Shown piece after piece: positions 30,573 through 51,092 of a stretch of 64,000 nt of DNA. Both the position numbers and the translations under genes were made by a program. Origin of the DNA: Azotobacter salinestris (lineage in GTDB: Bacteria > Pseudomonadota > Gammaproteobacteria > Pseudomonadales > Pseudomonadaceae); NCBI RefSeq assembly GCF_009363155.1, contig NZ_CP045302.1, positions 571,001 to 635,000 on the forward strand. The letters are read 5' to 3'. Numbering within the stretch: position 1 is the first letter of the stretch; every line of letters starts with the position of its first letter. A model generated the notes under the pieces. The model made no database searches and had not been told where the DNA came from. It was given only the letters and a program-made list of their open reading frames with translations.

Positions 30573-31232
30573 ATGACGGTTATCCAGGAACAGGTCGCAG
30601 CCGGCCAGGCCGCCTATACGCCGCGGACGTTGCCGCTCTACGACTTCGTGGTGCTCGGCGTTTCCAACCCCTTCATCTGGAAATGCCCCACCCGCCGCCT
30701 CGAACAGCACTACGAGCGCCATCTCAGCGCCAACCACCTGGATGTCGGGGTGGGCACCGGGTATTTCCCCGACCGTTGCCGCTTTCCCGCGCATGCACCC
30801 CGGGTGGCGCTGATGGATCTGAACCCGGACACCCTGGCGTTCGCCGCCCGGCGCATCGCCCGCTACGTGCCCAAAACCTACCGGCGCAACGTGCTGGAGC
30901 CGATCGTCTTCGCCGACGAGGGCTTCGATTCGATCGGCATCAACTACCTGCTGCACTGCCTGCCGGGCTCCATCGCCGCGAAAGCCGTGGTCTTCGATCA
31001 TCTCAAGGCATTGATGAACCCTGGCGCCGTCCTCTTCGGCGCCACCCTGCTGCAGGGCGGCGTCCCGCGCAGCCCCCTGGCGCGGGGGCTGATGGCCGCG
31101 TACAACCGCAAGGGGATCTTCTGCAACCGCGAGGACGATCTGGACAGCCTGAAGGAAGAACTTGGCCGGCGCTTTCGCGAGGTCTCGGTCGAGGTGGTGG
31201 GCTGCGCCGCGCTGTTCGCCGGGCGAGCCTAG
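30573..31232 (+). CDS. SAM-dependent methyltransferase
   Basis: 219 residues with a class I methyltransferase fold: LDVGVGTGYFPDRC (SAM loop), VALMDLNPDTLAFA (ribose-binding acid) and GFDSIGINYLLHCLPG (motif IV region). The N-terminus YTPRTLPLYDFVVLGVSNPFIWKC is typical of a group often found beside polyketide and peptide synthase genes. It is convergent with the terminal gene of the ars array and overlaps it by 4 bases, so a link to lipid tailoring is possible but it is transcribed from its own promoter. The target is unknown. Confidence 0.78.
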   Translation: MTVIQEQVAAGQAAYTPRTLPLYDFVVLGVSNPFIWKCPTRRLEQHYERHLSANHLDVGVGTGYFPDRCRFPAHAPRVALMDLNPDTLAFAARRIARYVPKTYRRNVLEPIVFADEGFDSIGINYLLHCLPGSIAAKAVVFDHLKALMNPGAVLFGATLLQGGVPRSPLARGLMAAYNRKGIFCNREDDLDSLKEELGRRFREVSVEVVGCAALFAGRA

Positions 31233-31717
31233 GGCTGACCCACCCGGTACCAGGTGCGCGTCTCGCCGATCAAGGGCGTGCCGATGAAACCCCGCACCTG
31301 CAGTTGCCGCCCGCCCCTCTGCAGGGTCAGGCGGCAGTCGTAGACCTTGCCGCTGTCCGGGTCGAGGATTTCCCCGTCCCCGTAGACATCGCCCCGCTGC
31401 TTCACGCCGCTGAGGATGGTCATGCCTAGCAGCGGCTTGCCACGGCGCTCCCCCTCGCACTTGTCGCAATAGGGCGACTCGGCATCCGGCCCGCGCAGGC
31501 CCTTCTCGATGATGCCCCGGTATTCGTCGCCCTGGCGGTCGATGCGGACCAGCGCCCGCGGCTCGCCGGTCCGCTCGTCGCGGATCATCCACAACCCGAT
31601 CAGCGGGTCGCCGGCCACGGCGCTGGCGGCGCCGCTGGCGGCCAGCAGCATCACCAGGGCGCAGCAGACGCACAGCCGCCGCACGGCCATCTGGCCACGA
31701 CCGTCCAGGGCCTTCAT
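31229..31717 (-). CDS. DUF2147 family exported protein
   Basis: 162 residues with a signal peptide (VRRLCVCCALVMLLAASGAASAVA). The mature part has the DUF2147 pattern: GLWMIRDERTGEPRALVRIDRQGDEYRGIIEKGL, a CDKCEG pair, and LGMTILSG followed by GEILDPDSGKVYDCRLTL. Members of this family are lipocalin-like or FABP-like small exported proteins of unknown function. A strong GGAGGA ribosome site lies inside the end of the acyltransferase gene, and only one base separates the two genes, so it is the last gene of the ars array. A lipid-binding role would suit the context but is inference. Confidence 0.82.
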   Translation of the reverse strand: MKALDGRGQMAVRRLCVCCALVMLLAASGAASAVAGDPLIGLWMIRDERTGEPRALVRIDRQGDEYRGIIEKGLRGPDAESPYCDKCEGERRGKPLLGMTILSGVKQRGDVYGDGEILDPDSGKVYDCRLTLQRGGRQLQVRGFIGTPLIGETRTWYRVGQP

Positions 31718-31718
31718 C

Positions 31719-33086: not shown

Positions 33087-33167
33087 GAAAAAACTCCCTG
33101 TATGGATCGAGCACCGGGCATCGCCGCCCGGACCATCAATCAAGAACGCGGGGGCCACCCGCGCTCG

Positions 33168-34523
33168 TCACGCCACCCTGGAAATGCCGCCGTCCGACTG
33201 CGAACGCCCTTTCCGGTCGAGGATTCCCAGGTGCTGCAAGACACGGTCGGTCATGCGATCGGCCGTGAAGCGCTCTGCCAGCGGACGGGCATTCCCTGCC
33301 AGTTCGCGGTGGAGCGTCGCATTCGTCAGCAGGCTCTCCAGCTGCCTGGCCAGGTCGCCGCTGTCCCAGGCGTGGAAGGTCAGACCGCCGGCCCGGTCGC
33401 CGTCGCGCATCACCTCGGTGACGCCGCCATAGTCGGGGACCAGCACCGGCGTGCCATGGCTCATCGCCTCGGCCACTACCAGTCCAAAGGCCTCCCGGTT
33501 CACCGAGGGATAGACCACGCAATGGCTGTGGACGAACAGGGTGTCGCGGATCTCCCCGGGGACAGCCCCCGCCTGATGTATCGGCAGACCGAGATGGCCG
33601 GCGAGATCGGCGATGACCCTCTTGCAGGACTCGCCCTTGGCGGTGGCGCCGCAGACCACCAGTTGCAGCTCAATGCCACGCGCCTTCAACAACCGGGCGG
33701 CGTAGAGCAGCAGGTCGATACCCTTCTCGGCCTCCTGACGGCCGCAGTAGGAGACAATGGGGACGTCCTCCCGCAGTTCGGGGAAAAGCTTCTTGAGCCG
33801 CGCCCGTGGCGGCCTGGCCGACGGCAGGGGCAACTCGACGCCGTTGTAGAGGACGCTCATGCGTTCCCGCGGCACCTTCAGTTCGCCGGCGATCCGCTCG
33901 AGGTAGTCGTGGCTGACCAGCAGGGCCGGCCAGCGCGAGCCGGCGACGGCCTCGTTGAGACGGTTGCGATAGGTCTCGTACAGGCCGCCCCGCTGTGCAT
34001 AGTCGGCGAACTGCTCGTCCCCCTGGAAGGTCAGCACGTAGTCGAAATCGAGTCCGCCCTGGCGCTTGGCCGCCAGGGCGAGCGTGCCGAGGGAGGCGAA
34101 GCTCATCATCAGGTGGCTGACTTCGTCCCTGGCGATGAAGTGGCGCAGGCGCCGGACCAGGCCGGCATCGGAGGCCGGCGTCGCATGCAGTGCACAGATG
34201 AGGTGGGTGAGCATGCGGTCGACGAAGCCGTTGATGCTCTGGGTGATACGTACCCGCAGCTTCAGCGGAAGCAGGAAGGCGGCCGAGCCGACCACCTGGT
34301 CCATGAATGCCGAGGGCCGCCGGAACTGGTAGCGCGTGCCGTGGCAGAGCAGCCGGTGTTCGATGCCAGGATCGGCCAGTTCGGGATTCCACTCCATCAT
34401 CCAGTAGACCACCACCTTGTAGCCGCGTCGGTGGAGGATATTGGCGAGAGTCAGATCGCGAATCGTGGAACCCAGATAGGAACCACTGCCAATGGTGACG
34501 AACGCAAAAGTCGGCTTGCTCAT
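33168..34523 (-). CDS. Glycosyltransferase, family 4 type
   Basis: 451 residues with a GT-B fold. The N-terminal half starts FAFVTIGSGSYLGSTIRDLTLANILHRRGYKVVVY. The C-terminal half carries IVSYCGRQEAEKGIDLLLYA, the Ex7E motif EAFGLVVAEAMSHGTPVLVPDYGGVTEVM and ends in RFTADRMTDRVLQHL, all typical of retaining GT4 enzymes. There are no clear membrane segments, so it would act at the cytoplasmic face. Placed within the ars array, it may glycosylate the phenolic lipid or another envelope lipid; neither donor nor acceptor can be read from the sequence. Confidence 0.85.
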   Translation of the reverse strand: MSKPTFAFVTIGSGSYLGSTIRDLTLANILHRRGYKVVVYWMMEWNPELADPGIEHRLLCHGTRYQFRRPSAFMDQVVGSAAFLLPLKLRVRITQSINGFVDRMLTHLICALHATPASDAGLVRRLRHFIARDEVSHLMMSFASLGTLALAAKRQGGLDFDYVLTFQGDEQFADYAQRGGLYETYRNRLNEAVAGSRWPALLVSHDYLERIAGELKVPRERMSVLYNGVELPLPSARPPRARLKKLFPELREDVPIVSYCGRQEAEKGIDLLLYAARLLKARGIELQLVVCGATAKGESCKRVIADLAGHLGLPIHQAGAVPGEIRDTLFVHSHCVVYPSVNREAFGLVVAEAMSHGTPVLVPDYGGVTEVMRDGDRAGGLTFHAWDSGDLARQLESLLTNATLHRELAGNARPLAERFTADRMTDRVLQHLGILDRKGRSQSDGGISRVA

Positions 34524-34592
34524 GCTGCCTCCGGTCCATGGGGAGGACCGCGGGCCGGATCGCGCCCGCTGCCTCCCTCGCTCAGGGAACGC

Positions 34593-35852
34593 TCAGAAGG
34601 TGTAGCTAACGCCGGTGAACACCGAATAGCGCAACAACGTCCCGAACTCGTCGTCGTCGCCGCCGGTGAAGATGTTTCCAGTGAAATAGGCCTGGACGTG
34701 GTTGGTCACGTCGTACTCGAGAATGCCGGTGAAACGCTGGGACTCGTCGTCCAGGTTCCTCAGGTAACGGATGTTGTATTCGAGATCCGGAATCGAGGTG
34801 TTGTCGGTGACCTGGATCATCGCGTAGCTCTGCCGGTGGAGCACGTTCCGGCTTTGGAACTGGCCGGTCTGGATGCAGCCGATCAAGGGCTCGTCGTCGC
34901 AGCCGTTGTTGTCGCGCAGGTATTCGACGTTGACGGTCGGACCGATCTCGAGGGTGTAGGAGGCGCCGAACTGGTAGCCGGTCTTGCCCTCGTGCTCGAC
35001 ATTGCCCTCGGTATAAAGAAGCAGGGCATCCGAAGCGTTCCAGCCGGCGAAGAAGCCGGTCTGGTGCTGATCGCTCTCCCGGTAGGAGTGAATGATCGAG
35101 GCATAGCCCGAGGAGCCGGTATAGTCGAGCTTGACCGCGTAGATCTTCTCGAACTCATCTTCCGACAGCCGGCCACCGCCCACTGTGGGCTGGCCCGACA
35201 TGTAGCCTTCGACGTCGTCCGAGCGTCCCGGGCCATAGTTGTAGATTGTCGAGAGCGTCCAGTTTTCGTTGGGGATCCAGATCGCCCGGTAGTAGTCCAG
35301 GCCGGGAACCTCGACGCGCGGGTTGTTGCGTCCGTTGTCGCGGGTGAAGGGGTTGGACAGCGAGAGGATCACCGACGGACCCCATTGCAGGTTTTCCCGC
35401 CCGTAGGATAGGGTCAGCTCGTCGAAAGGCCGGTAGCGCACCCAGCCTTCGGTGAGGAACAGCTCCGAGCTGTCCTGATCGTCGCCATCGCGCGGACCGT
35501 CCTCCCATTTCTCCCAGATCGCCTCGGCACGCGGCTTGAGGGCGAATTCCCAGTTGCGGAAGTTCAGGTTCAGGTCCGCCCGCGGGTTGAGCACCCATTG
35601 GTAGCGCGGTATCTCGGCGGCGTTGTCGGGGTTGAGCGTCGAGTCCTCCGTTTCCTGGATCAGGGTGTAGGCCATGAGATTGACGCGTGAATAGAAGCCG
35701 CTCGCCAGCTCATCGGCCAGGCTCATCTGCTCCTCGCCCAGCTCTGGAAGCTCGGCCGCAGTCGCCATTCCCGCCTGAATTGCCATGCCTGCCAAAGGCA
35801 ATACCAGTCCCAAACGATGCGCCATCCTTGCCATCTCTGCCATCCGTGCCAT
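34593..35852 (-). CDS. Outer-membrane beta-barrel protein
   Basis: About 419 residues. The C-terminus alternates polar and hydrophobic residues and ends in GVSYTF, the aromatic-terminal beta-signal of outer-membrane barrels. Strands such as DLNLNFRNWEFALKPRAEAIW, ELTLSYGRENLQWGP and LYTEGNVEHEGKTGYQFGASYTL support this. The signal peptide is HRLGLVLPLAGMAIQAGMATAAE. The start is uncertain, because four in-frame ATGs occur within ten codons (MARMAEMARMAHR) and no good ribosome site is visible; 35852 is the first of them. The LYYGRE/LQWGP pattern resembles DUF1302-like proteins that accompany LolA-like carriers. It may be the outer-membrane end of the lipid export route. Confidence 0.75.
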   Translation of the reverse strand: MARMAEMARMAHRLGLVLPLAGMAIQAGMATAAELPELGEEQMSLADELASGFYSRVNLMAYTLIQETEDSTLNPDNAAEIPRYQWVLNPRADLNLNFRNWEFALKPRAEAIWEKWEDGPRDGDDQDSSELFLTEGWVRYRPFDELTLSYGRENLQWGPSVILSLSNPFTRDNGRNNPRVEVPGLDYYRAIWIPNENWTLSTIYNYGPGRSDDVEGYMSGQPTVGGGRLSEDEFEKIYAVKLDYTGSSGYASIIHSYRESDQHQTGFFAGWNASDALLLYTEGNVEHEGKTGYQFGASYTLEIGPTVNVEYLRDNNGCDDEPLIGCIQTGQFQSRNVLHRQSYAMIQVTDNTSIPDLEYNIRYLRNLDDESQRFTGILEYDVTNHVQAYFTGNIFTGGDDDEFGTLLRYSVFTGVSYTF

Positions 35853-35997
35853 ATCCGAATTTGTCCATACTGCGTTGAATGCCCTTGACGGGTTGTTGAG
35901 CCTAAAGGAATTAGTATGAAGCGCTCCGTATTGCAGAGGCAATGCCGAGCTCGTCGTCCGTGAGCTTCCCGCCATGCCGGAGCGCTCCATACCAGGC

Positions 35998-36999
35998 TCA
36001 CTTCATGAACAGATTGATATTGAAGATGAAATCCGGCAGCGGTGCGAGCTTCGGCTTGCTCATGCTCAGGGTGGTGACGTCGCCGCTCATCAGCTCCTCG
36101 TAGATGGCGATCTCGGAGATGAAGGGACGTGCCTCGCCATTGATCATCACCGTGCTGCCGTACGCCATGTTGGACGACTTGAAGCGCTTGCCCGATAGCG
36201 TGTAGTAGTCCGCCTTCACGCCGACCAGGCGCTCCTTGTCCACCCAGTAGATGATCCGGTCGTAGGTGGTCTTGGAGTTGCGCGCCTTCAGGTCGAAGAC
36301 ATAGCAGTCCACGCCATCCACGACTTCATCGGGCAGACGGGTCGCGTCGTAGTCCTCGGCGTAGTTGGTCGAGGCGACGTCGCCATAGGAGGCCTGGCCC
36401 ATCAGCTTCTGGCGCAGCGAGATGGGGATCGGCTTGCTCAGGCCCGGCTTGTGGAACCACATGTTGTTGTCGAGCATGAGCAACTTCTGTCCCTTGGATT
36501 TCGGCGGTGCGATGTTGAGTCCCGAGATGTTGAAGCCGCGCGCCTTGATGTCGTAGAGCATGGTGTCCGTACGCCCCTTCTCCCTGGACTCGATCTCCAC
36601 GTTCCAGGCGATGCCCTGCAGGTTGCCGCGCGATTCGTCTGCCCGCTTGAGGATCTGGTAGGGATCCTCGCCGGAGCTGGCGACCGGCGTCGGCATGCTG
36701 GCCTTGGCTACCTGAGGCATGGCCTCTGGCTCGGGCTCCTTGCGTACCGGCGCACTCGCTGCCGGGGGCTCGCTGGCGGCTCGGGGAGCTGCCTCCGTCT
36801 TGATTTGAGCCGGCGCCGGCCGAGGGGCAGCAGCCCGCTCGGCCGGCTTGTCGTCATCGTCGCTGCCGAACAGCCGGCTGAAGAAGCCCCGGCTGCTCTC
36901 CTGGACCGCCCTTACGGGCGGCTCGGTGTTCTCCGCGACGGCCAGGGTACTGACCAGCAGCGCCAGACCGAATGCGGAAATGCGGGAAAGTCCTTTCAT
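35998..36999 (-). CDS. LolA-like outer-membrane lipoprotein-sorting family protein
   Basis: 333 residues. A signal peptide (MKGLSRISAFGLALLVSTLAVA) is followed by a proline/alanine-rich linker (about residues 45-110) and then a LolA-like half-barrel: DPYQILKRADESRGNLQG, FNISGLNIAPPKSKGQKLLML, MWFHKPGLSKPIPISLRQKLMGQASYGDVASTNYAEDYDATRL. This last stretch is the hallmark of the LolA_like family (Pfam LolA_like) that accompanies RND or ABC lipid exporters. It probably carries a hydrophobic molecule across the periplasm. Its gene sits 41 bases after the ABC permease gene, as expected for one system. Confidence 0.85.
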   Translation of the reverse strand: MKGLSRISAFGLALLVSTLAVAENTEPPVRAVQESSRGFFSRLFGSDDDDKPAERAAAPRPAPAQIKTEAAPRAASEPPAASAPVRKEPEPEAMPQVAKASMPTPVASSGEDPYQILKRADESRGNLQGIAWNVEIESREKGRTDTMLYDIKARGFNISGLNIAPPKSKGQKLLMLDNNMWFHKPGLSKPIPISLRQKLMGQASYGDVASTNYAEDYDATRLPDEVVDGVDCYVFDLKARNSKTTYDRIIYWVDKERLVGVKADYYTLSGKRFKSSNMAYGSTVMINGEARPFISEIAIYEELMSGDVTTLSMSKPKLAPLPDFIFNINLFMK

Positions 37000-37040
37000 C
37001 TCTCAAAATCTCCGTCGGTTCGAAAATCTGTCCCAGCGGC

Positions 37041-38291
37041 TCACACATGCCCCAGGGCGCCGACGATCTCCATCCGCGCCGCCTTGCGTGCCGGAAGGCT
37101 CGCCGCGAGCAGGGACAGCACCATCAGCGCCAGCAGGCTCCAGAGCATTTCCTGGGGCACCAGGTAGACCTCCAGCGGGATGCGCCGGGTGATCTGCGGC
37201 GGGATCCAGGTCGGCTCCAGGGTGGCGATGCTCGACCACACGGCGAGGGTCAGCAGTACCCCGAACAGCGAACCGAACAGGCCGAGCAGCATGCTTTCCA
37301 GGGCGAACAGCCCGACGATGCCGCGCCGCTTCACGCCCAGGGCGCGCAGCGTGCCGATCTCCCGGGTACGCTCCATGATCGCCATGCCCACGGTGTTGAT
37401 CACGCTCATCACCACGATGGTGAAGACGATCAGGAAGGCGAACAGGAAGATCACGTCGAACATGTTCTTGACCTTGGTGTAGAAGGTCGACAGCTCGTTC
37501 CAGGTCTTGATGTCCACATCCAGGCCGCGGCCGATCAACTCGTTCTGCAGGGTCGCGCGCATCGGCTCGGTAAGCAGGCCGTCATTGAGCAGGACGTTGA
37601 CCCGGTCGACGCTGGTGGTGTCGTAGAGGTTCTGGGCGAACTCCAGGCTGACCAGCATCAGCTTGTCTTCCAGGGCCTCGACCGGCGAGTTGAAGGTCTG
37701 CAGCATCTGGCCATCGAGGGCGTTGATCTGCCCGTTCACGGTCGGTGCCATCACCACCACGGTATCGCCCTGCTTGAACCTGAGCTGATCGGCCAGCCCC
37801 TGGCTCATGCCCACGCCGTTGGGCTGCTCGTCGGCCATGGGCTCGCCGTCGAACAGCTGCATGCCGCCCACCTTGGTCCGCGAGCGGCTGCGAATGACAT
37901 CGACCTTGGAGGCTACCCGTCCGCTGGCGAGGAAGATGGTCGACACCTCGCCGTTGCTGACCAGACCGGAGATGTTCAGCTCGGGCGTCGAGATGCGGAT
38001 CTCCGGATGCGCAGCGAGCACCTCGTCGATCACGGCGACCTCCTCCTCGCTGAGCAGGTAGCGCGTCGGATCGAGCTTGCCCTCGTCGAGGAAGCCCTTC
38101 TTGAAGATCGACAGGTGGCCGTTGCCCTGGATGTGGATGTAGGAATCCTCCAGGCTGGTGAAGATATAGGCGGTGAAACCGCCCAGGGCGTTGACCGCGG
38201 CGAAGCCGAGCCCGATCGCCATCACGGTGAACAGCGAACGGCGGCCGTTGCGGAACAGGTTGCGCGTGGCGAGCTTGAACCAGGTGATCAT
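37041..38291 (-). CDS. ABC transporter permease, LolE/MacB type
   Basis: 416 residues with the FtsX/MacB layout: one N-terminal membrane segment (LFTVMAIGLGFAAVNALGGFTAYIF), a large periplasmic domain (about residues 50-270), then three C-terminal segments (MFDVIFLFAFLIVFTIVVMSVIN, VGLFALESMLLGLFGSLFGVLLTLAVW, LWSLLALMVLSLLAASLPARKAARM). This type extracts lipids or lipoproteins from the inner membrane rather than moving solutes. It overlaps the ATPase gene by 4 bases (ATGA), so the two form one exporter. Confidence 0.9.
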   Translation of the reverse strand: MITWFKLATRNLFRNGRRSLFTVMAIGLGFAAVNALGGFTAYIFTSLEDSYIHIQGNGHLSIFKKGFLDEGKLDPTRYLLSEEEVAVIDEVLAAHPEIRISTPELNISGLVSNGEVSTIFLASGRVASKVDVIRSRSRTKVGGMQLFDGEPMADEQPNGVGMSQGLADQLRFKQGDTVVVMAPTVNGQINALDGQMLQTFNSPVEALEDKLMLVSLEFAQNLYDTTSVDRVNVLLNDGLLTEPMRATLQNELIGRGLDVDIKTWNELSTFYTKVKNMFDVIFLFAFLIVFTIVVMSVINTVGMAIMERTREIGTLRALGVKRRGIVGLFALESMLLGLFGSLFGVLLTLAVWSSIATLEPTWIPPQITRRIPLEVYLVPQEMLWSLLALMVLSLLAASLPARKAARMEIVGALGHV

Positions 38292-39040
38292 GGGCGGCTC
38301 CCTGCGACACGGGTCTGGGCGGTCGGGCGCGTCGGCTGGCTGTCGCTGCCGATCTCGCCGTCCTGCATCAGGACACGGCGCTTGACGCTTTCCAGCAGAC
38401 GCTGGTCATGGGTGGAAAAGACGAAGGCGGTGCCGTGGCTGGCGTTGATGTTCAGCATCAGCTCGATGATCCGCCGGGCGTTGCCGGAGTCGAGGTTGGC
38501 GGTGGGCTCGTCGGCGATCACCAGAGCCGGATCGGTGACCAGCGCCCGGGCGATGGCGACCCGCTGCTGCTGGCCGCCGGAGAGCTTGGCCGGACGGTGG
38601 CTGACGTGCTTCTCGAGGCCCACCTCGGTCAGCCGCTCCATCGCCCGCTCCCGGGCGACCGAGGAGGAGGCGCCGGCGATCTGCAGCGGCAGCATGACGT
38701 TCTCCAGCGCCGAGAGCACCGGCACCAGGTTGAAGTTCTGGAAGACGAAGCCGATGGTCCGGTTGCGCAGCTCGCTGCGGGCGTTGTCCGACAGGTCGTT
38801 GACCTCCTGGCCGTTGATCAGCACGGTGCCCGAGGTGGGCGAGTCGAGCATGCCGATGAGGTTGCACAGGGTCGACTTGCCGGACCCGGACGGCCCCCAG
38901 ATCGCGACGAACTCGCGCGCCTGGATGGTGATGTCGATGCCCTTGAGGGCGATCACCGGCTTTTCGCCGATCTGGTAGTGCCTGGTGGCCCGGCGCAGCT
39001 CGACGAGCGGGGCCGTTCCAATCGAAGTGATAGTGTTCAT
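38288..39040 (-). CDS. ABC transporter ATP-binding protein, LolD/MacB type
   Basis: 250 residues. Walker A is GPSGSGKSTL, the signature LSGGQQQRVAIARALV and Walker B LVIADEPTANLDS, with a switch histidine in FVFSTHD. The sequence is of the LolD/MacB family, which pairs with the permease encoded next. It starts 105 bases after the arsD stop, in the same direction. There is no periplasmic solute-binding gene, which fits a lipid exporter. The substrate is inferred from position to be an ars product. Confidence 0.92.
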   Translation of the reverse strand: MNTITSIGTAPLVELRRATRHYQIGEKPVIALKGIDITIQAREFVAIWGPSGSGKSTLCNLIGMLDSPTSGTVLINGQEVNDLSDNARSELRNRTIGFVFQNFNLVPVLSALENVMLPLQIAGASSSVARERAMERLTEVGLEKHVSHRPAKLSGGQQQRVAIARALVTDPALVIADEPTANLDSGNARRIIELMLNINASHGTAFVFSTHDQRLLESVKRRVLMQDGEIGSDSQPTRPTAQTRVAGSRP

Positions 39041-39145: not shown

Positions 39146-41056
39146 TTATCGACCGGATGCGCCTGCCGTTTCGGTCGCCGCGTAGGCGATGACGAAATCG
39201 CCGTCGCGCACACTGTGCACGCCGATCAGCCGGCCGCTGTCCCGGACCTGGATGATGAAGCTCCCGGCGCCATCGATGGCGATCGCCTCGAAGCGCTGCG
39301 GGGCGCCATCCACGCCGGTGCCCAGCAACTTGCCGGCGGCCTCCTTGGCGGACCACAGGCGGGTGACCCACTCGTCCCGCAGCGCGCCCTCCACCGCCAA
39401 ATCATCCAGCAGTTCGCGCTCGCCGGCCGTGCTGAAGCTTTCCAGGAAGCCGGCGGCGCGCGGACGGATCTGCTCGATGTCGATGCCCACCGGCTGCTCA
39501 CCGGCAAGCGCCACCGCCCGGTCCTCGCAGTGCGCGATGCTGATTCGTGGCAGTCGTGCATGCTCCTCCAGCCCCGCCACCCGCGGCTGGCCCGCCGCCT
39601 CGCTATCGATGACGAAGGCCGCCGGGTGCAGCATCTCCGGCTGCTCGCTGTGGGCGGCGAGCCAGGCGCGGACCGCGTCCTTCGCCGCTACCCGACCGAG
39701 CTGCCACTGCTGCTGGCGCGGCGGGACGCCGGCCTTGGCGGTGAAGGCCTCCATCTCGTCCAGATGCAGGTAGTGACGCGCCAGCAGCAGCGGATCGAAC
39801 CCCTGGGTATCGGCCTTGGTGATCAGCCGGCACTGCACGTCCCTGGCCAGCGACGGCAGCTCCAGGGGGCGGCTCAGCAGGTAGCGGGTCGGCTGGCGAC
39901 GGAAATCGAGCACCTGGGGCGGGTTGCGAAACTTGATGCTCCCCCACTCCCGCACGCGCAGCCAGACCCCGCCGGAGCCGTCCTGGATCTCCACGTTGGC
40001 GTACATGGTCATGGTTTCGTCGCGGACGATCTCGATGCGGATCGGCGCCCGGGTGCCGGCCGGCGGCGTCGAGCGGTACAGCTCCAGCTTGCCGAAGCCG
40101 ATCGGCAGCACGTAGCGGTCATGCTGCATGGCCCACACGCCGATGAACTGGCCGATTCCGTCGAACAGGGCCGGATCGATCAACAACTGAGGCTGGTCGA
40201 TCGAGCGGAACAGCTCGGTCGGCGGCCGGGTCACCAGCTCCGTCACCGCGCCCTCGTCGGCGATGACGATTTCGCCGGTCAGGCATTGGAAGCACGGCCC
40301 GTGGAACATGTGGCGCTCCCGGTAGATGTCCTCGCCGGTCAGCGGCAGGCGGTAGGGGTTGCTGAAATTGCCGAAGGACAGGTCGAGGTCGACCCGATAG
40401 GCCGTGGAGAGCAGCACAGTGGCGGTGGTCGAGGGCATGTCCTGCCCCTCGAGCTGGATCGCCACGGCGACTCGCCAGACCTGACTGTCGGCATCGACCT
40501 CCTTGACCCGGGCGCTGATGTTCAGCACCTCGCTGTCGCGGTCGGAAACCTCGATCCAGCGGGTGGCCTTGACGTCCTCGAAGCCGATCAGCCCCAGGCC
40601 GGGAGCCAGACAGGCGGCCGCCTCGGCCATCACCTCCAGGCTCATGGTCAGCGGCAGTACCGGCATACAGGCGGATACCGGCTTGACCCCGGGGGCATGG
40701 ACGAAGGCATGGTCGGCGAGGTACAGGTCCTCGTCCAGGTGCAGCCGGCGCTGGATCAGCAGCGCCTCGCCCGGAGCGTAGGCCAGCACCTGGCCGATGA
40801 AGGGCAGACTGCCCTCCTCCAGCGGCTCGGCGGCAGGTCCGGGCTCGGATCGAGGCGCTTGCGCGGCTGGCTGGGCTGCTTCCTGGGCGCGGGTCGATTC
40901 AGCTTCGAGCTCCACGGCGGTGACGACTGCCACGGCCTCCTCGACCGGCTCCTCGCTGCGCAGCTCCTCGGCGGACTCCACCTCGTAGACACGGGCGATC
41001 AGGGGCATGTCACTGTTGGTATCGAATACCAGATGGGAAAGGCTTGCGCTGCTCAT
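39146..41056 (-). CDS. arsD: ArsD: double hot-dog dehydratase fused to phosphopantetheinyl transferase
   Basis: 636 residues, known in Azotobacter as part of the type I fatty acid synthase that feeds the phenolic-lipid enzymes. After an acidic N-terminal stretch comes a PKS-type dehydratase: catalytic His in LADHAFVHAPGVK (about residue 116) and Asp in LLIDPALFDGIGQF (about 293). The last 200 residues form a Sfp-type phosphopantetheinyl transferase, with GIDIEQIR near 525 and WSAKEAAGKLLG near 570, which would activate the ArsA carrier domain. The start overlaps the arsC stop (ATGA) behind GGAGAAGAT. The fusion of dehydratase and transferase in one chain is unusual but is the described ArsD layout. 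Confidence 0.88.
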   Translation of the reverse strand: MSSASLSHLVFDTNSDMPLIARVYEVESAEELRSEEPVEEAVAVVTAVELEAESTRAQEAAQPAAQAPRSEPGPAAEPLEEGSLPFIGQVLAYAPGEALLIQRRLHLDEDLYLADHAFVHAPGVKPVSACMPVLPLTMSLEVMAEAAACLAPGLGLIGFEDVKATRWIEVSDRDSEVLNISARVKEVDADSQVWRVAVAIQLEGQDMPSTTATVLLSTAYRVDLDLSFGNFSNPYRLPLTGEDIYRERHMFHGPCFQCLTGEIVIADEGAVTELVTRPPTELFRSIDQPQLLIDPALFDGIGQFIGVWAMQHDRYVLPIGFGKLELYRSTPPAGTRAPIRIEIVRDETMTMYANVEIQDGSGGVWLRVREWGSIKFRNPPQVLDFRRQPTRYLLSRPLELPSLARDVQCRLITKADTQGFDPLLLARHYLHLDEMEAFTAKAGVPPRQQQWQLGRVAAKDAVRAWLAAHSEQPEMLHPAAFVIDSEAAGQPRVAGLEEHARLPRISIAHCEDRAVALAGEQPVGIDIEQIRPRAAGFLESFSTAGERELLDDLAVEGALRDEWVTRLWSAKEAAGKLLGTGVDGAPQRFEAIAIDGAGSFIIQVRDSGRLIGVHSVRDGDFVIAYAATETAGASGR

Positions 41057-42282: not shown

Positions 42283-43496
42283 ATCTTCTCCAGCACCATT
42301 CCGGTGACAGTCAGCCCGGGACCGAAACCCAGGCACACGACGCGCGTACCCATATCCACCTCTTCGAGGACCTGCTTGAGGATGTGGGGAACGGTGGCGG
42401 AGGACATATTGCCGTTCTCCAGGAACACGCTCTTGCTGATCGCCACCTGCCCATCGGCGAGTCCCAGGTCCTCCTGGATGTGCTCGACGATCTTCGGTCC
42501 GCCCGGGTGGATGGCGAAGGTCAGCTCGTGCTTCTCGCGCTCGAAGTCGATGCCGGCGCGCGCAAGCAGCTTCACCACGAAGTCGCGGACGTGGCGCTTG
42601 ATGACCACCGGCACCATGGGCGTGAGGGTCATCAGGAACTGGTGCGAACTCGGAATCCAGGTCATGTCGTCGGCGGAGTCGGGCAGCAGGTGCTCGTTCA
42701 TCGCCAAGACCCTGAGGCCGTGCCCTCCCTGGCGCTGCAACTCCTCCTCGGACAGTACCGAGTACTTGATCAGGCCGTCGGCAAAGAGGGTCATGGTGAT
42801 GATGTTTTCCGCCCGCGCATCGACGATGTTGTTGTGCGCCGAGAGCAGTTCGGAGTGCACGATGTCGACCCGATGCTTGATCGGGGTGACACCGAAGCGC
42901 GACGAGGAGAGCATGCCGTGGGCCATCTTGATCGCCGGAAAGGCGCCGTAGCAGCCCATGTGATAGCTGTGGGTCACCGTGGTCTCAAACCAGCCGCGAC
43001 TGGCTGCCATCCGCTCGACCGGGCTCGGCGACAGATAGCCCGAGCAGGTCACGTGGATGAGATCATCAGGTGCTTCGGCGGCATTCTGAAACATCAGCTC
43101 CAGCCCCTGATCGACGACCTTGGCGTAGCTCTCGTGGCGAGACTTGAGATCGGCGCCGCGCGGGTCCGTGGCGATATCGTACAGCCGCAGGTAAGGGTGC
43201 TCGGGCGGAGCAACCTCGATGTGGCCGTTGGAGAAGCGGATGTCCGAGACCTTCGGGAAGAAGATCAGTTGACGGCGCCTGATCTGCGAGGAGGACAGGG
43301 CATATTTGTCGAACTTTTCCTTGACCGACTGGTAGACCTGGGCGAAGCCCGCCTCGTCCTGGCCGACGCCGTTCTTGAGGCAATAGGCGCGGGCAAAGCC
43401 ATAGGCCGACAATTCCAGGGTCAGTGCCTGGGGAATGGGCTTGGCCAGCTGTGCGGGGGTGAAGCCGGTAAGAACTGCATTGTGGGGACTACTCAT
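42279..43496 (-). CDS. arsB: ArsB: type III polyketide synthase (alkylresorcinol synthase)
   Basis: 405 residues, catalytic Cys182 (HSYHMGCYGAFPA), His330 (IHPGGPKI) and Asn363 (ENGNMSS). It is clearly homologous to ArsC over its full length. It would extend long acyl chains from the type I synthase and fold them by aldol condensation to 5-alkylresorcinols, the cyst-coat phenolic lipids of Azotobacter. Trp280 sits where ArsC has glycine, agreeing with resorcinol specificity. A strong ribosome site (AAGGAGGAAATACC) precedes the ATG at 43496; 84 bases separate it from the arsA stop. Confidence 0.93.
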   Translation of the reverse strand: MSSPHNAVLTGFTPAQLAKPIPQALTLELSAYGFARAYCLKNGVGQDEAGFAQVYQSVKEKFDKYALSSSQIRRRQLIFFPKVSDIRFSNGHIEVAPPEHPYLRLYDIATDPRGADLKSRHESYAKVVDQGLELMFQNAAEAPDDLIHVTCSGYLSPSPVERMAASRGWFETTVTHSYHMGCYGAFPAIKMAHGMLSSSRFGVTPIKHRVDIVHSELLSAHNNIVDARAENIITMTLFADGLIKYSVLSEEELQRQGGHGLRVLAMNEHLLPDSADDMTWIPSSHQFLMTLTPMVPVVIKRHVRDFVVKLLARAGIDFEREKHELTFAIHPGGPKIVEHIQEDLGLADGQVAISKSVFLENGNMSSATVPHILKQVLEEVDMGTRVVCLGFGPGLTVTGMVLEKI

Positions 43497-43580
43497 GGTA
43501 TTTCCTCCTTGAGTGAGCGGTTGCCTTTGCAGCGATCCCGCGCGCGCAGGCGCGGGAAAGACTTCAACCGTGGGCCGTTC

Positions 43581-46500
43581 CTAGGGTTGGCTCTCCGAAT
43601 CACGCTTCTTGCGTGCTTGCATCTGCTCGACGATCTGCTCGAGACTCGCGGTGATCACCAGCTCGGTCTCGCCGGTATTGCCCCGCCGGATCTGCTCCAG
43701 GCAGTGACGGGTACCGATATCCAGCGGGATCGGGTGGATATTGCGTTCCGCATAGAACTTGAGCATCTGGTCCCCTACCATGCCGGACTTCCAGGGTCCC
43801 CAGTTGACGGCCAGCGCCTGTACGCCGGGCCAGGCATGGCCGAGGCTGTCCGCCAGCTTGTTGAGCACCTCGTTGGCCGCGCTGTAGTCGCTCTGCCCCG
43901 CATTGCCGAAACGCCCGGCGATGGAGGAGAAGAACAGCACGAACTTCAGGCCTACCGGACGCAACCGACTGGCCAGCACCCGGGCGCCGGCGACCTTGGT
44001 GTCGTACACCGAGGAGAAGGACTCCAGGGTCTTGTCGCGGATCAGCTTGTCGTCGATGACCCCTGCGCCGTGCAGCACGCCGTCGATGCGTCCCCACTTC
44101 GCATAGATCCCGTCGATCAGCCGACCGAAGGCCTCGCCGTCGCGCACATCCACGGCGTGGTACTCGACCTTCGCACCGGTCGCCTCGAGCCGCGCGAGGT
44201 TGTCGCGGATCTCGCGATCCTTGAGCAGGCGCTTGAAGACCCGGTCCACCTCGGCCGGCTTCACCTTCGCGCCCCCTTCGCCGCGCAGCTTGCCGATCAG
44301 CACCTGCTTGAGCTGCGCCGGATCGGCGATCGCGCGGGTGTCCTCGGCCTCCTCCTCCGGCAGCGGACTGCGCCCCACCAGCACCAGCTGCGGGCGATAC
44401 TCGCGGCCCAGGGCAGCGGCTATTTCCGCGGTGATGCCGCCGGCCCCGCCGGTGATCAGCACCACGGCGCCCTCCTCCAGGGCCGGCAGACCCACTGCGG
44501 CGCCGGCCGCCTGCAGGCCCAGCTCCAGCTGGCAGCGCCCTTCGGCGCCGTAGCCGACTTCCAGCGCAGGGACCTGGGCAGCCCATTCGCCCAGTACCCG
44601 CTCGACCATTTCCCCGACCTTCAAGGCCGGCGACAGGTCGATGCACTTGACGTGCACCTCGTCGCCCCACTCCCGCGACGCCGACTTGGCGACGCCCAAG
44701 GTGCCGGCAGACTCGATGGGCAACTCGCGCGAGTGCTCGAGGCCGAAGCGGCCGTCCAGCGCGGTGACGCCGAGCAGCCAGCCGGCGCCGGCCCGGGCGG
44801 CGGCCTTGAGGTCCTGGTCGAAGACCTTGCACAGCAGGAACAGGACCTTGGCCGGGGCGATGGCATACCCCTCCCCGCCCGGCACGCCGAGCAGGCTGAC
44901 GAGGGTCCCGATCCGCTCCCCGCCGAGCAGCTCGCGCAGCGCCTGCACCGACTGCAGCGAGGTGGGATCGAACTCGAAGCGACTATCGCCCAGCGTGCGG
45001 TTTTCCTTGCCGGGAACGATCTGCTTCACCTGATGCCCAGCCTGGCCGAGGGCGACGCGGAAGGCGGTGGCCAGTTCCGAGTCATCCCCAACCAGCAGGA
45101 CCGGCAGGCCGGCTGAGGGCTGCGGGCCGGCGACCGCACCCAGGGGCGCGGCGACGGGCTTGACGGTGTAGCAGTGCACGACTTGTTCCGGCGCAACTTC
45201 GGTTGCGGACTCCGCCGTCTCAGCCGGCAATGCCGACAGCGGAGTCAGTGCTTTTTTTGAGGCTTGGTCTCCTGCCCCTGCGGAGTCATGGAGCCTGTCA
45301 TACCAGGCGATGATCTCGTTGAGGGTCTTGAGGCCGGTGAGCTCCTCGAACACGGCTTCCTCGTCGCGCCCGTCCATCAGGTTGTGGCGATCCTTGAGCT
45401 GGCTCAGGACCTCGATGCGCTTGATCGAGTCGATGCCCAGGTCGGCTTCCATGTGAGCGTCCAGATCGAGCATGTCTTCCGGATAGCCGGTACGCTCGGA
45501 AACCGCCTGCAGCAGGTCGGTCTTGAACGCCTCGGTGGAAGCCAGAGCGGCGGAAGCGGCAGGCTTGGCAGCCGGAGCAGCGGGGGCGGCTGCGGCGACG
45601 GACAGTTTGGGCACCTCGGCACGTGCCTCGCTGCGCTGGGCCGAACCCTCGATAGTGGCAACCTGGGGCTCGCGGCCGACCGGCAGACCGGCGGCATGCA
45701 GCGACAACACCTGGGCCGGCAGCACCGGTACCGGCGCGGGCGCCAGCCCGGCCTGGGAGACCACCTGCAGGTTGGGACGCGGCTCGCTGACGCTTGCCAG
45801 GTCGGCCCCCGCGAGGCTGCTCTGGAAATCGAGGAACCGACGCAGCGTTTCCTGCTGGTCGCGTTGCAGCGCGATGAACTGCGCGATGACTTCCTGAACA
45901 TGTGCGACATTCAACGGCGATGAGGCCTCCATCGCTGCCGGGAGCTCTCCCGTGCGCACTGTGTTGTCGTTTGCCATGCTGAACCTCCGTTGTGGCGCGT
46001 GGCGGTTAACGTTGACCGGAGTTGCCACCGGTCGGGCGAAAGAGACATGGGCGACGGTCGTACTGCTCGCGACCGGCTGTGCCTGGGGTTTCGGCGCGAC
46101 CACCGGCTGCGGACCGGCCGCTTCGGCCGGCGCCTGGGCGATCACGGGGCGAGCCTTGGCCGGAGCATTCCAGGGCAGCGCGCGGGCGCCGTTGACGCGC
46201 CAGATCAGCGGGCCGGGCACGGCCCTGGCCTTGGCCCGGGCGAACACCTCCGCGACCGCCAGCGCCTCGTAGCCGCGCCCCTTGAACCAGCGGCCGAATT
46301 CCAGCGGCAGGCCGAGGACGAACAGCTGGCCGAGCACATGGGCGAGCTGTACCCAGCCGCTACGCCCGGGCGCCTCGATGCCGAGTGCGGCATGCGGACG
46401 GTCGGCGAGAATGCGGTCGACCAGTCCGGTCAGCACCAGCCCCGGACCGGCTTCGACGAAGATCCGTGCGCCGGCCTCGTATAGCTGGTTGATCTCCTTG

Positions 46501-49500
46501 ACGAAGTGCACCGGCTCGGTCATGTGCTCGACCAGCAGGGCGCGCATGGCCTCGGGCTCCGCCGGATAGGCGCCGCCGGTGGTGTTGCTGAACACCGGCA
46601 CCCGGGCCGGCCTGAACTCGATCTTCGCCAGCTCGGCGGCCAGTCCCTCGCGCGCACTGGCCATCGCCGGCGAGTGGAAGGCGGCGCTGACCGGCAGCAC
46701 CTTGACCCGCAGCGCCTCGTTGCCCAGCACCTTGGCCGCAGCCTCGATGGCCTCTATCGAGCCGGCAACGATGGTCTGGTCGGCGGCATTGAGGTTGGCC
46801 AGGGTGACGTTCAGGCCATGCTGCTCGATCAGCGCGCGGACGCGGGCCTCGTCGGCGTCGATCGCCGCCATGGCCCCCGGATTGCTCCGGCCGGCCTCGC
46901 CGGCGAGGCGACCGCGGACTTCCGATAGATGGATGAAGTCGTCCAGGCCGATCACCCCGGCGGCATGCAAGGCGACGTACTCGCCATAGCTGTGCCCGGC
47001 GACGAAGTCCGGCTTCAGCCCGTAGTCGCCCAGCACCCTGAGCGCGGCGCTGTCGACCACCCCCAGCGCCGGCTGGGCGACCTGGGTCGCGTTCAGCACG
47101 GTCTGCTGGCGGGCACGCTCCTCGTCGCTGAATACCGGCACCGGATAGATGTAGCGCGACAGGGGCTGCTCCAGGCGGTCGGCGAGCAGCTTGTCGGCGC
47201 GCTCGAACAGGTCGTGCAGCTCGGGCAGGGAGGTCGTCAGGTCGGCCAGCATGTTGACCCGCTGCGAACCTTGGCCAGGGAACACGAAGCAGACGCCGCC
47301 GGTGGCTTCCGGTCCTTCGCGGAAGAACACCCCTTGCGGGTACTTCACCTCGCATTCCCGTCCCTGCAGTGCCTTCAGGGCCAGCTCCAACTTGGCCTTG
47401 AGATCGGCGCCGGAGCTGGCGAGCAGGGCCAGCCGACAATTGCGCGCACCGTCGGCGGCACGGGGCGCGGCCTGTTCCAGATGCAGCGAGTAGGCCAGTT
47501 GGGCGATATCGACCTGCTCGGGATGCTCCAGGGCAGCGAGCAGGCGCTGCGCCTGTTCGCGCACCTGGGCACGGTCCTGGCCACGGAAGGCGAAGGGCTC
47601 GGCATCGCGCGGATTGAGGTCGACGACGTCGCTGTCGCGGTAGGCGCCGGTGTATTCCTCCATCACCACATGGAAGTTGGTGCCGCCGAAGCCGAAGGCG
47701 CTGACCCCGGCGCGGCGCGGATGGTCCGAGGTGTTCAGCCAGGGCCGGGTCTCGGTGTTGATGAAGAACGGCGAGCGGCCGAAGTCGATCTTTGCGTTCG
47801 GCGTCTCGACGCCGATGGTCGCCGGCAGCACGCGCTGCTTGAGCGCCAGCGCGGTCTTCACCATCGCCGCCAGGCCGGCGGTCACCTTAGTGTGGCCGAT
47901 CATCGACTTAACCGAACCCACGGCGCAGGACTGGGTGGCCATGCCGGTCTTGCCGAAGGCGAGGTTGAGCGACTCGATCTCCGACTTGTCGCCGAGCGCA
48001 GTACCAGTGCCATGGGCTTCGATCAGGCCGATGGTGGTCGGATCGACCGCGGCGTCCTCGTAGGCTCGCTGCAGGGCGGTGACCTGTCCCTGGGGATGGG
48101 GCGCGGTGAGGCTGCGGTTGCGGCCGTCACTGGAGGCACCGATGCCCTTGATCACCGAATAGATGCGGTCGCCGTCACGCTCGGCGTCGCCCAGGCGCTT
48201 GAGCACCAGGGCGACTACGCCCTCGCCCAGGGCGATGCCGTCGGCGCTGTCGTCGAACGGACGGCTGCGGCCGCGCGGCGACAAGGCATGGGTCTGGGAG
48301 AAGCAGAGGAAGCCGACCGGGTTGTTGGTGGCGTCCACCGAGCCGACCACGGCGACATCGGCATCGTGGCTGCGCAGCTGGCGGATGCCCACGTCGAGGG
48401 CCGCCAGCGACGAGGCGCAGGCCGCATCGACGATGTAGTTGGTGCCGCGCAGGTCGAAGCGGTTGGCGACCCGCCCGGCGATGACGTTCTCCAGGATGCC
48501 GGGGAAGGAATCCTCGGTCCACTTGGGCAGGTCCTGCTCGTAGAGCGCCTCCAGCACCTGCCTGGCGGCCTCCTCGGGCAGCCCCTCGATCCGCGGCAGG
48601 TAATGGCTGAGCAGGCCGCGGAATATATAGTCGCAACCCAACTCGTTCATCCCGCCGGCGGCGAAGATGGTCGCGGTGCGGTCCCTGGCGAACGAGCGGC
48701 GGTCGAAACCGGCATCGGCCAGGGCCTGGCGCACCACGTCGAGGGCCAGCAGTTGCACCGGCTCGATCGATTTCAGGCTGGCCGGCGGGATGCCGTACAG
48801 GGACGGATCGAACTGGATGTCGTCCAGGAAGCCGCCCCACTTCGAATACACCTTGTCGGGGAGGCCGCGCTTGGGATCGAAGTAGTCCTCGGGGCGCCAG
48901 CGCTCCTCGCTCACCTCACGGATCGCGTTGACCCGGTGGAGAATGTTCTGCCAGTAGGTGCGCAGATCGTTGGCGCCGGGCAGCAGGCCGGCCATGCCGA
49001 CGATGGCGATGTCGCTTTCCGCCGCCACGCGCTTGGCCGCGCGCTTGCGCGGCAGGCGCTGATCGACCTGCGCCAGCACCCCGCTGCAGCCTTCCGACAC
49101 CGCACTGTGCAGTTCCGCAATGCTCAGCGCACGCGAGCGCAGGCGGGCGACCTCGCCGAGCATGTACATGCCCTCGCGGCGCTGATCCTCGGGAGGGATT
49201 TGCACGTAGCGGGAGGCTGCCGAACGGTCGGGGTTCTGGCTGATGCCCTTGGAGGCCATGCGCAGGCGACCGATATTGAACAGCTCCAGTACCTTGAGCA
49301 CCTTCTCCGGGGTCTCCAGGGCGAGCAGCATGTCGCGCCGGGTGCGGTTGAACTCGTCGCAGAAAGGTGTCACCGCGCAGCGGGTGTACATGCCCTTACC
49401 GGATTGCAGCAGGGTGGTTTCCTTGCAGGCGATGGCCTGGGACTGGAATTCCGGCAGGATCGCGCCGCTGTTGACGATCTCGTGGGTGAAGAGATAGGCG

Positions 49501-51092
49501 GTGCCCATGATCACGCCGATCTTCATGCCGCGCTCGACCAGCGGCGCCGCCAGGGCGGAAACCATCGCCGCCGACAGCTCGTCGTGGATGCCGCCGGCGA
49601 ACAGGATCTGGACCGACTCGGGATCGTTGATCTCGACCGAGGTCAGGGTCTCGATGGCCGACTCCCAGAGAATGAAGCTGCTCAGCGGGCCGGTGTGGCC
49701 ACCGCATTCACCGCCCTCGAAGATGAACTTGCGGGCGCCGTCCTTGATGAAACCCTTGAGCAGCCCGGGCGAGGGTACGTGCAGGTAGGTGCTGATGCCG
49801 ATGGCCTCAAGCTCGCGGGCCTGGCCGGGACGCCCGCCGGCGATCAGTGCGAAGCGCGGCTTGATCTGGCGGACCACCTCGAGCTGGGCCTGGCGCAGCT
49901 CCAGCGGCATGAAGCCGAGGATACCGACCCCCCAGGGCTTGTCGCCGAGCAGCGCCTTGGTCTTGGTCAGCAGGCTCTGCACCTGCTCCTGACGCATCAC
50001 CGACAAGGCGATAAATGGCAGGCCGCCACCATCGGCCACGGCCTTGGCGAAGCCCTCCACGTCGCTGACCCGGGTCATCGGGCCCTGGACGATCGGGTAG
50101 CGGGTGCCATGCAACTGCGCCAGCGGGGAATCCGGTCCCAGCGCGTGCTGCGTGCGGGCTCCGCGCAGGGCCTGTTCGGTGCCGCTCGAAAGCGCGGCGA
50201 GAATGCGTCCGACGGTACCGTGACGGCGTGCCAGGGCGGCCGCCAAGGCGATGTCCTCGCCCATCGGCTGCAGTTTGCCATCCACCTGGGCGAGCGCCTT
50301 GAGTAGCAGGGCCTCCCACGCCTCCTCCTTGATCACCGCCTGCTCGAGTTCCTCGAGCTGCTCGCGGGCACCGCGGCCGAACAGGCGGAACGAGCGTTGT
50401 TCGGGGCCGATCAGCACGGTTTCGCTGCCATCCAGCGCCGCCCAGGCACGGGCCTGCGGGGTACCGATGAAGGGGCTCTCGTCGGCCAGCCAGAGCTGCT
50501 CGCAGAGCACCACGCCGGATGCGCCGGCGAGCACCGCGGCGGCAGCGGTATGGGTGCCCATGCCGCCCTGCACCCAATAGGGGATGTTGACCCGACCGTG
50601 CAGCTCCTGGAGCAGGATGAAGCTCGAATGGCGGCTGACCCAGCCACCGGACTCATGTCCCTTGAGGATCAGCCCGTCGCAGCCGGAGGCCTCGGCGGCC
50701 AGGGCCGAGGGCAGATCCCAGACCTCGACGAAGATCTTGCAGGCCAGGCGCTTGATTCTCTTCTTCAGCGCGGCCAGCTCCTTGGGCTGCATCCCGGTGA
50801 AGACCAGGTCGTCCGGCTTGAGGCCGGCGAGCACCAGGATCGGCACGCGCCGGGGGATGAATTCGGCCAGTTGCTCAAGGCCGCGCTCGGCCGAGCCGAG
50901 GGTATCCCAGCGGATCCCCCACTGGGCGCTCGGCCCGGCATTGGCGGCCAGGCCATCGATGGCTGCCCTAGTAGTTTCCGGATCGTTGTGACAGCCCAGA
51001 TCGAGGATTCCGATTTCCCCGGCACGACAGGCAGCAATCGCAATCCTGGAGTCGAGATACCCTGCGGGAGTTATTGCAATATGACTAGCCAT
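43581..51092 (-). CDS. arsA: ArsA: type I fatty acid/polyketide synthase (NPD-NPD-KS-AT-ACP-KR)
   Basis: 2503 residues in one chain. Residues 1-300 and about 335-620 are two nitronate-monooxygenase-like (PfaD-type enoyl reductase) barrels; the second has the usual GGECGGHTG, while the first has GHESGGWVS, without the histidine. The ketosynthase (about 690-1120) has Cys892 in DAACASSLAALD, EAHGTGTALGD and GHTKVTAGLAA. The acyltransferase (about 1270-1560) has Ser1368 in AGHSYGEYVALH. A linker with proline-rich stretches leads to one carrier domain, Ser1889 in DLGIDSIKR. The ketoreductase (about 2205-2440) has TGGAGGIT and SSIAGRFGNAGQSDYSAAN. With ArsD it should make saturated long-chain acyl units handed directly to ArsB and ArsC. 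The ATG at 51092 follows AGGATGATCAA. Confidence 0.92.
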   Translation of the reverse strand: MASHIAITPAGYLDSRIAIAACRAGEIGILDLGCHNDPETTRAAIDGLAANAGPSAQWGIRWDTLGSAERGLEQLAEFIPRRVPILVLAGLKPDDLVFTGMQPKELAALKKRIKRLACKIFVEVWDLPSALAAEASGCDGLILKGHESGGWVSRHSSFILLQELHGRVNIPYWVQGGMGTHTAAAAVLAGASGVVLCEQLWLADESPFIGTPQARAWAALDGSETVLIGPEQRSFRLFGRGAREQLEELEQAVIKEEAWEALLLKALAQVDGKLQPMGEDIALAAALARRHGTVGRILAALSSGTEQALRGARTQHALGPDSPLAQLHGTRYPIVQGPMTRVSDVEGFAKAVADGGGLPFIALSVMRQEQVQSLLTKTKALLGDKPWGVGILGFMPLELRQAQLEVVRQIKPRFALIAGGRPGQARELEAIGISTYLHVPSPGLLKGFIKDGARKFIFEGGECGGHTGPLSSFILWESAIETLTSVEINDPESVQILFAGGIHDELSAAMVSALAAPLVERGMKIGVIMGTAYLFTHEIVNSGAILPEFQSQAIACKETTLLQSGKGMYTRCAVTPFCDEFNRTRRDMLLALETPEKVLKVLELFNIGRLRMASKGISQNPDRSAASRYVQIPPEDQRREGMYMLGEVARLRSRALSIAELHSAVSEGCSGVLAQVDQRLPRKRAAKRVAAESDIAIVGMAGLLPGANDLRTYWQNILHRVNAIREVSEERWRPEDYFDPKRGLPDKVYSKWGGFLDDIQFDPSLYGIPPASLKSIEPVQLLALDVVRQALADAGFDRRSFARDRTATIFAAGGMNELGCDYIFRGLLSHYLPRIEGLPEEAARQVLEALYEQDLPKWTEDSFPGILENVIAGRVANRFDLRGTNYIVDAACASSLAALDVGIRQLRSHDADVAVVGSVDATNNPVGFLCFSQTHALSPRGRSRPFDDSADGIALGEGVVALVLKRLGDAERDGDRIYSVIKGIGASSDGRNRSLTAPHPQGQVTALQRAYEDAAVDPTTIGLIEAHGTGTALGDKSEIESLNLAFGKTGMATQSCAVGSVKSMIGHTKVTAGLAAMVKTALALKQRVLPATIGVETPNAKIDFGRSPFFINTETRPWLNTSDHPRRAGVSAFGFGGTNFHVVMEEYTGAYRDSDVVDLNPRDAEPFAFRGQDRAQVREQAQRLLAALEHPEQVDIAQLAYSLHLEQAAPRAADGARNCRLALLASSGADLKAKLELALKALQGRECEVKYPQGVFFREGPEATGGVCFVFPGQGSQRVNMLADLTTSLPELHDLFERADKLLADRLEQPLSRYIYPVPVFSDEERARQQTVLNATQVAQPALGVVDSAALRVLGDYGLKPDFVAGHSYGEYVALHAAGVIGLDDFIHLSEVRGRLAGEAGRSNPGAMAAIDADEARVRALIEQHGLNVTLANLNAADQTIVAGSIEAIEAAAKVLGNEALRVKVLPVSAAFHSPAMASAREGLAAELAKIEFRPARVPVFSNTTGGAYPAEPEAMRALLVEHMTEPVHFVKEINQLYEAGARIFVEAGPGLVLTGLVDRILADRPHAALGIEAPGRSGWVQLAHVLGQLFVLGLPLEFGRWFKGRGYEALAVAEVFARAKARAVPGPLIWRVNGARALPWNAPAKARPVIAQAPAEAAGPQPVVAPKPQAQPVASSTTVAHVSFARPVATPVNVNRHAPQRRFSMANDNTVRTGELPAAMEASSPLNVAHVQEVIAQFIALQRDQQETLRRFLDFQSSLAGADLASVSEPRPNLQVVSQAGLAPAPVPVLPAQVLSLHAAGLPVGREPQVATIEGSAQRSEARAEVPKLSVAAAAPAAPAAKPAASAALASTEAFKTDLLQAVSERTGYPEDMLDLDAHMEADLGIDSIKRIEVLSQLKDRHNLMDGRDEEAVFEELTGLKTLNEIIAWYDRLHDSAGAGDQASKKALTPLSALPAETAESATEVAPEQVVHCYTVKPVAAPLGAVAGPQPSAGLPVLLVGDDSELATAFRVALGQAGHQVKQIVPGKENRTLGDSRFEFDPTSLQSVQALRELLGGERIGTLVSLLGVPGGEGYAIAPAKVLFLLCKVFDQDLKAAARAGAGWLLGVTALDGRFGLEHSRELPIESAGTLGVAKSASREWGDEVHVKCIDLSPALKVGEMVERVLGEWAAQVPALEVGYGAEGRCQLELGLQAAGAAVGLPALEEGAVVLITGGAGGITAEIAAALGREYRPQLVLVGRSPLPEEEAEDTRAIADPAQLKQVLIGKLRGEGGAKVKPAEVDRVFKRLLKDREIRDNLARLEATGAKVEYHAVDVRDGEAFGRLIDGIYAKWGRIDGVLHGAGVIDDKLIRDKTLESFSSVYDTKVAGARVLASRLRPVGLKFVLFFSSIAGRFGNAGQSDYSAANEVLNKLADSLGHAWPGVQALAVNWGPWKSGMVGDQMLKFYAERNIHPIPLDIGTRHCLEQIRRGNTGETELVITASLEQIVEQMQARKKRDSESQP

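Follow-up and report, generated by a model that had tools for sequence, protein, structure and literature searches.

A candidate export cassette for phenolic lipids in the ars operon of Azotobacter salinestris

How do the phenolic lipids of Azotobacter cysts, once synthesized, reach the outer membrane and the exine? The ArsABCD enzymes of A. vinelandii make alkylresorcinols and related lipids. Phenolic lipids have been reported to replace 95% of the cyst membrane phospholipid (PMC10651043), and one paper treats the operon as arsABCD, with mutants in the biosynthetic genes having a defective exine (PMC4314083). The route to the outer membrane and exine is not stated in the accessible passages of published work on Azotobacter. 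No export half for ars is described in the titles or abstract openings among the matches listed from open PMC papers, a collection with the subscription literature mostly outside it.

The window analyzed here (64,000 nucleotides of A. salinestris, contig NZ_CP045302.1, positions 571,001 to 635,000) carries a run of eleven genes on its minus strand at 31229-51092. The order proposed in the initial annotation, from arsA-D through an ABC pair, a carrier, a barrel, a GT4 and an acyltransferase to a DUF2147 protein, was confirmed in the window:

43581..51092, minus strand: arsA, type I FAS (NMO/ER, KS, AT, ACP, KR), 2503 aa; 89% identity to A. vinelandii CA
42279..43496, minus strand: arsB, type III PKS, 405 aa; 89-90% identity to three Azotobacter species
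41053..42282, minus strand: arsC, type III PKS, ATG start at 42282; 82-89% identity to three Azotobacter species
39146..41056, minus strand: arsD, DH and PPTase domains, ATG start at 41056; 84-90% identity to three Azotobacter species
38288..39040, minus strand: LolD-like ABC ATPase, 250 aa; top NCBIfam match TIGR02211 (LolD)
37041..38291, minus strand: LolE-like single permease, 416 aa; TIGR02212; profile against LolE chains 6.6e-22
35998..36999, minus strand: LolA_like periplasmic carrier, 333 aa; PF17131 1.2e-33; profile against 3buu 5.9e-49
34593..35990, minus strand: predicted outer-membrane barrel of 18 strands; 465 aa (397 aa if translation begins at the ATG at 35786)
33168..34523, minus strand: GT4 glycosyltransferase, 451 aa
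31719..33158, minus strand: FabD-like acyltransferase, start GTG at 33158 or ATG at 33086
31229..31717, minus strand: DUF2147 protein

The first four genes form an arsABCD phenolic-lipid operon, with the type I FAS ArsA, two type III PKS and the DH-PPTase ArsD in order, at 82-91% identity to their counterparts in three Azotobacter species. Upstream of arsA, about 1.28 kb without an assigned gene (51093-52373), AT-rich by eye in a window of 66.7% GC, is possibly a regulatory region; the gene beyond it (52374-54995) resembles, by eye, a lysine/ornithine-type decarboxylase.

The next question is what kind of transporter follows arsD. The ATPase scored 246.8 bits against TIGR02211, under the LolD cut-off of 307.75, and the only permease gene of the operon scored 86.1 bits against TIGR02212, under the LolC/LolE cut-off of 362.45. 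The carrier belongs to the LolA superfamily (PF17131, 116.8 bits against a cut-off of 30). Its structure model was set aside at a mean pLDDT of 51.5, the linker being modelled at low confidence; in the alignment this low-complexity linker, about 90 residues long and following the signal peptide, occurs in the Azotobacter carriers only and is absent from other ars carriers. For the barrel, the 18-strand outer-membrane fold comes from a predicted model; the protein matched no Pfam and no NCBIfam family at 1e-3, and a PDB sequence search returned one chance-level chain, which is no barrel. With OprD/Occ, AlgE and Wzi barrels it shares 9-14% identity and no sequence family match, and their functions are not transferable to it.

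Conservation was assessed in a scan for ArsB, which gave 86 relatives and 80 loci kept, 30 of them with arsA, arsB and arsD all present. In 24 of these 30 the ATPase and permease directly follow arsD, and the carrier is also present in 23 of the 24 (most scored loci are themselves rows of the HMMs used to score them); the contig of the 24th, L028, ends after the permease. Three of the 24 loci (L008, L011, L026) are absent from both the carrier and the permease alignment, and L028 is absent from the former as well. The barrel adjoins the carrier in 17 of the 23 carrier-bearing loci; five Burkholderia/Paraburkholderia loci have it in divergent orientation 7.6-10.4 kb upstream of arsA, and no barrel was found in L031 or in the MAG to which that locus belongs. 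The spacing between arsD and the ATPase, a gap of 105 bases in the window, ranges from an overlap of 50 bases to a gap of 364, with a 4-base overlap in L009, L022 and L026. In four methanotroph loci the gap exceeds 150 bases (319 in L010, 364 in L011, 202 in L023 and 173 in L032), so a single transcript cannot be taken for granted there. Outside the Chlorobium group, none of the 48 scanned loci without ArsA, several of them short contigs, has the carrier. In gamma- and betaproteobacterial loci, arsA-arsB-arsD are thus conserved together with ATPase, permease, carrier and, mostly, barrel. Directly upstream of arsA in one Burkholderiales locus (L024:1344-2288) lies a protein containing the first part of an AMP-binding domain, and its cluster recurs in other Burkholderiales loci.

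In five of the 30 loci, all alphaproteobacterial (Beijerinckia L014; Methylocystis and a relative, L017, L018, L019 and L034), DevC-, DevA- and DevB-like genes replace the cassette. These calls were made by NCBIfam for L014, L017 and L019, where the curated DevBCA cut-offs were missed though the models were best or near-best matches (DevC 137.7 in L019 and 151.4 in L014 against 290.35; DevA 245.5 in L017 against 295.8; DevB 103.7 in L017 and 97.3 in L014 against 129), and by clustering and HMM for L018 and L034. The contig of the remaining locus, L020, ends 2 kb past arsD.

The genes downstream of the barrel are tied less uniformly to ars. Of the 30 ArsA loci, 17 have a GT4 match (incomplete in two, being fragmented in L012 and lying at the end of the contig in L015), which upholds the proposed place of the GT4 in the module; glycosylation itself we infer. 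Alkylresorcinol galactosides are known from Azotobacter, and nothing usable on them was found in the open literature. Loci of the Methylocystis type carry a GT2/GT21 (HpnI-like) and an FkbM methyltransferase. The acyltransferase and DUF2147 protein had also been counted into the export module and were both rejected as members. The former occurs in L006-L009 only, that is, three Azotobacter loci and one Azoarcus MAG, within 10 kb flanks (loci ending earlier fall outside this scope). Among 20 genomes searched for DUF2147 at 1e-5 (19 with ArsA loci and one Chlorobium), the gene is linked to ars in four (Azotobacter and one Azoarcus MAG), lies on another contig in ten and has no match in six.

How tightly is the cassette itself bound to ars? 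Of the 369 genomes searched in the class, 59 had a match to the carrier profile at 1e-5, and a carrier of ars grade (at least 400 bits) occurred in two, the genome of the window (406 bits) and G136 (419), the next score being 212. Of 180 Burkholderiales genomes 35 matched at 1e-20, with ars grade only in the seed G377 (413.7) and the next at 240.5. All three ars-grade carriers stand beside ArsA-ArsD, and G136 is the only such match among the 549 genomes that was not chosen beforehand. ArsB was found in three of the 369 genomes (E<=1e-30; that of the window and two at 36-37%) and in one of the 180 (E<=1e-20), the seed. The barrel profile matched seven of the 369, strongly only in the window's genome and G136.

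G136 carries a run of ArsA, ArsD, ATPase, permease, carrier and barrel (L123:1450-13850 and L142:917-8434), with identities of 56-57% for ArsA, 51-52% for ArsD, 64-66% for ATPase, permease and carrier and 46% for the barrel, and its genome gave no match to PF02797 (type III PKS). Because ArsA-ArsD and the four cassette genes occur there without a type III PKS, the cargo need not be phenolic. Past the barrel lie a 653-aa protein, an NAD_binding_4 reductase, a sulfotransferase and a B12/radical-SAM protein. In G201, a genome again with no PF02797 match, a KS-AT-ACP-KR-DH type I synthase stands beside a diverged cassette. G330 has an orphan ATPase-permease-carrier set with a barrel relative on another contig. 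Five Burkholderiales loci (L188-L192) have ATPase, permease, carrier and barrel, with intermediate carriers of 210-240 bits, followed by two genes that Pfam identifies in L188, L191 and L192 as a LytS-type kinase and a LytTR regulator; the stretches fetched around these LytS/LytTR-linked cassettes gave no ArsA, ArsB or ArsD match. A different arrangement is seen in L127-L135, where some 11 kb encompass an ATPase gene, two permease genes and a diverged LolA_like gene.

Given these controls, the cassette is wider than ars, with one clade belonging to ArsA/ArsD loci. A cassette away from ars with another partner, named in the initial annotation as evidence against its reading, thus exists in the wider family (LytS/LytTR) and not in the ars-grade clade. 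An exclusive tie to phenolic lipids does not hold, given G136 and the distant cassettes with the two-component pair. The synthases of G136 and G201, and the reductase and sulfotransferase of G136, lend some weight to a reading in which the cassette exports any very-long-chain product of the ArsA/ArsD type (acid, alcohol, sulfated or glycosylated lipid) and the phenolic ring is incidental. This reading is considered unlikely, and it fits poorly with the Chlorobium group, where KS and SDR are separate genes that stand with the cassette and a type III PKS, and where the two scanned loci (L037, L039) have no ArsA-type synthase.

Seven Chlorobium-group loci, two scanned (L037, L039) and five fetched (L167-L171), encode a barrel-like protein together with permease and carrier. 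In five of them the permease is preceded by a type III PKS gene: in L037, L170 and L171, in L039 with a further gene intervening, and in L168, where the PKS is a piece at the end of the contig. In L169 a PKS fragment takes this position, and in L167 a type III PKS lies about 6 kb upstream. A KS and two SDR genes were found in five of the seven, not in the short L039 and L168. In the two scanned loci the permease is separated from the second type III PKS by a protein that has no Pfam match (L037:13675-14682, L039:3128-4363). Among 61 Chlorobium-order genomes six have the LolA relative (E<=1e-10) and the same six a strong type III PKS (E<=1e-40); seven further genomes gave weak PKS matches only, the best at 8.8e-15. 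The P of 1.8e-8 for this overlap is given no weight, because it ignores genome relatedness and the 1e-40 line was drawn after the matches were seen. Carrier and PKS are on different contigs in G428, with the PKS fragment inside L169, and the PKS of G409 is split over contig ends.

In the permease tree 22 ars rows and G136 form one clade with support of 100/100, and the seven Chlorobium rows another, apart from it. An AU test of a clade named after the first tree was seen rejected uniting the two sets (p-AU 3.1e-5), with long-branch warnings remaining. G136 stood at the edge of the ars clade in the first tree and inside it in the second, from which six rows of the first were dropped for long branches (pks_G201, tcs_L191, oth_L139, L140, L141 and L195). 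In the Chlorobium group, too, type III PKS loci thus carry a related cassette, and on the AU test it was apparently joined to them separately.

The same result bears on a further alternative, that the cassette is a Lol-type envelope system for encystment lipoproteins or peptides, co-regulated with ars and not carrying lipid. Its ATPase and permease are nearest to LolD and LolE, and related cassettes stand with the LytS/LytTR pair. Against this, the joinings to lipid-synthase loci appear separate, alphaproteobacterial ars loci have DevBCA-like genes instead, and a canonical LolB gene is present elsewhere in the window's genome; the alternative is regarded as improbable.

Published proteomics is consistent with grouping the ATPase with ars. 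In PMC10651043 Avin_29510 ('ABC-type antimicrobial peptide transport system, ATPase component') has fold 0 in an algU mutant under encysting conditions, with ArsC (29530), ArsB (29550) and ArsA (29560) in nearby rows of the same Table 3; soluble extracts were used, and the accessible part of the paper gives no AlgU motif for Avin_29510. Because of the tag order and the map of L006, Avin_29510 is taken as the counterpart of the LolD-like ATPase, which would make this ATPase AlgU-dependent together with ArsA, ArsB and ArsC.

Because genes for synthesis, pump, carrier and barrel share one run, the operon is a candidate dedicated export route for phenolic lipids. Gene content, order, conservation and the fold prediction were seen directly; the reading of the operon as a make-and-ship unit taking alkylresorcinols and pyrones to the outer membrane is given a probability of roughly 0.7. 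The LolD-like ATPase and a homodimer of the single LolE-like permease would extract the completed lipid from the inner membrane. The soluble LolA_like carrier would shield the alkyl chain of this lipid across the periplasm, and the barrel would accept the lipid or pass it on to the surface or outer leaflet (cyst outer membrane, exine). Some of the lipid is probably glycosylated by the GT4 in the cytosol. We infer the direction, the cargo, the permease homodimer and the roles of barrel and GT4 from the genes, and it may be the FAS product, and not the aromatic ring, that determines the cargo. In alphaproteobacterial ars loci a DevBCA-like tripartite exporter would do the same job. The complete lipid-export path read earlier from this stretch is partly supported. 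The balance tilts slightly towards a Lol-type pathway for a non-protein lipid, with pump, chaperone and receiving barrel, joined at least twice to type III PKS loci, the DevBCA-like genes being a third solution. If this is true, the range of LolA-family carriers would include free lipids as well as lipoproteins. The locus offers specific genes to delete in a standard laboratory organism, and a candidate glycosyltransferase.

The cassette resembles the Lol pathway (LolCDE-LolA-LolB) in its ABC ATPase, MacB/LolE-type permease and LolA-superfamily periplasmic carrier, and differs from it in having one permease gene instead of LolC and LolE, in missing the NCBIfam LolD and LolCE cut-offs, and in an operon with a barrel, without LolB and tied to lipid synthases. 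In the heterocyst glycolipid system DevBCA acts as an exporter. As described in the accessible passages, the heterocyst locus likewise unites synthase, glycosyltransferase and ABC exporter in one island, has an HgdBC-TolC exporter and, like ars, provides the protective lipid layer of a differentiated cell (PMC6161253, PMC11804610). Unlike it, the Azotobacter locus has a LolDE/LolA/barrel exporter, and only the alphaproteobacterial ars loci are DevBCA-like. The xanthomonadin, arcuflavin and flexirubin clusters have an exporter of the RND/MMPL type. In the accessible account these clusters resemble the present one in that a polyene or dialkylresorcinol pathway is accompanied by LolA, an acyltransferase, a glycosyl transferase and an exporter-like protein, and differ in their type II FAS-like synthesis (PMC3949708). 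The exporter in the present locus is an ABC pair.
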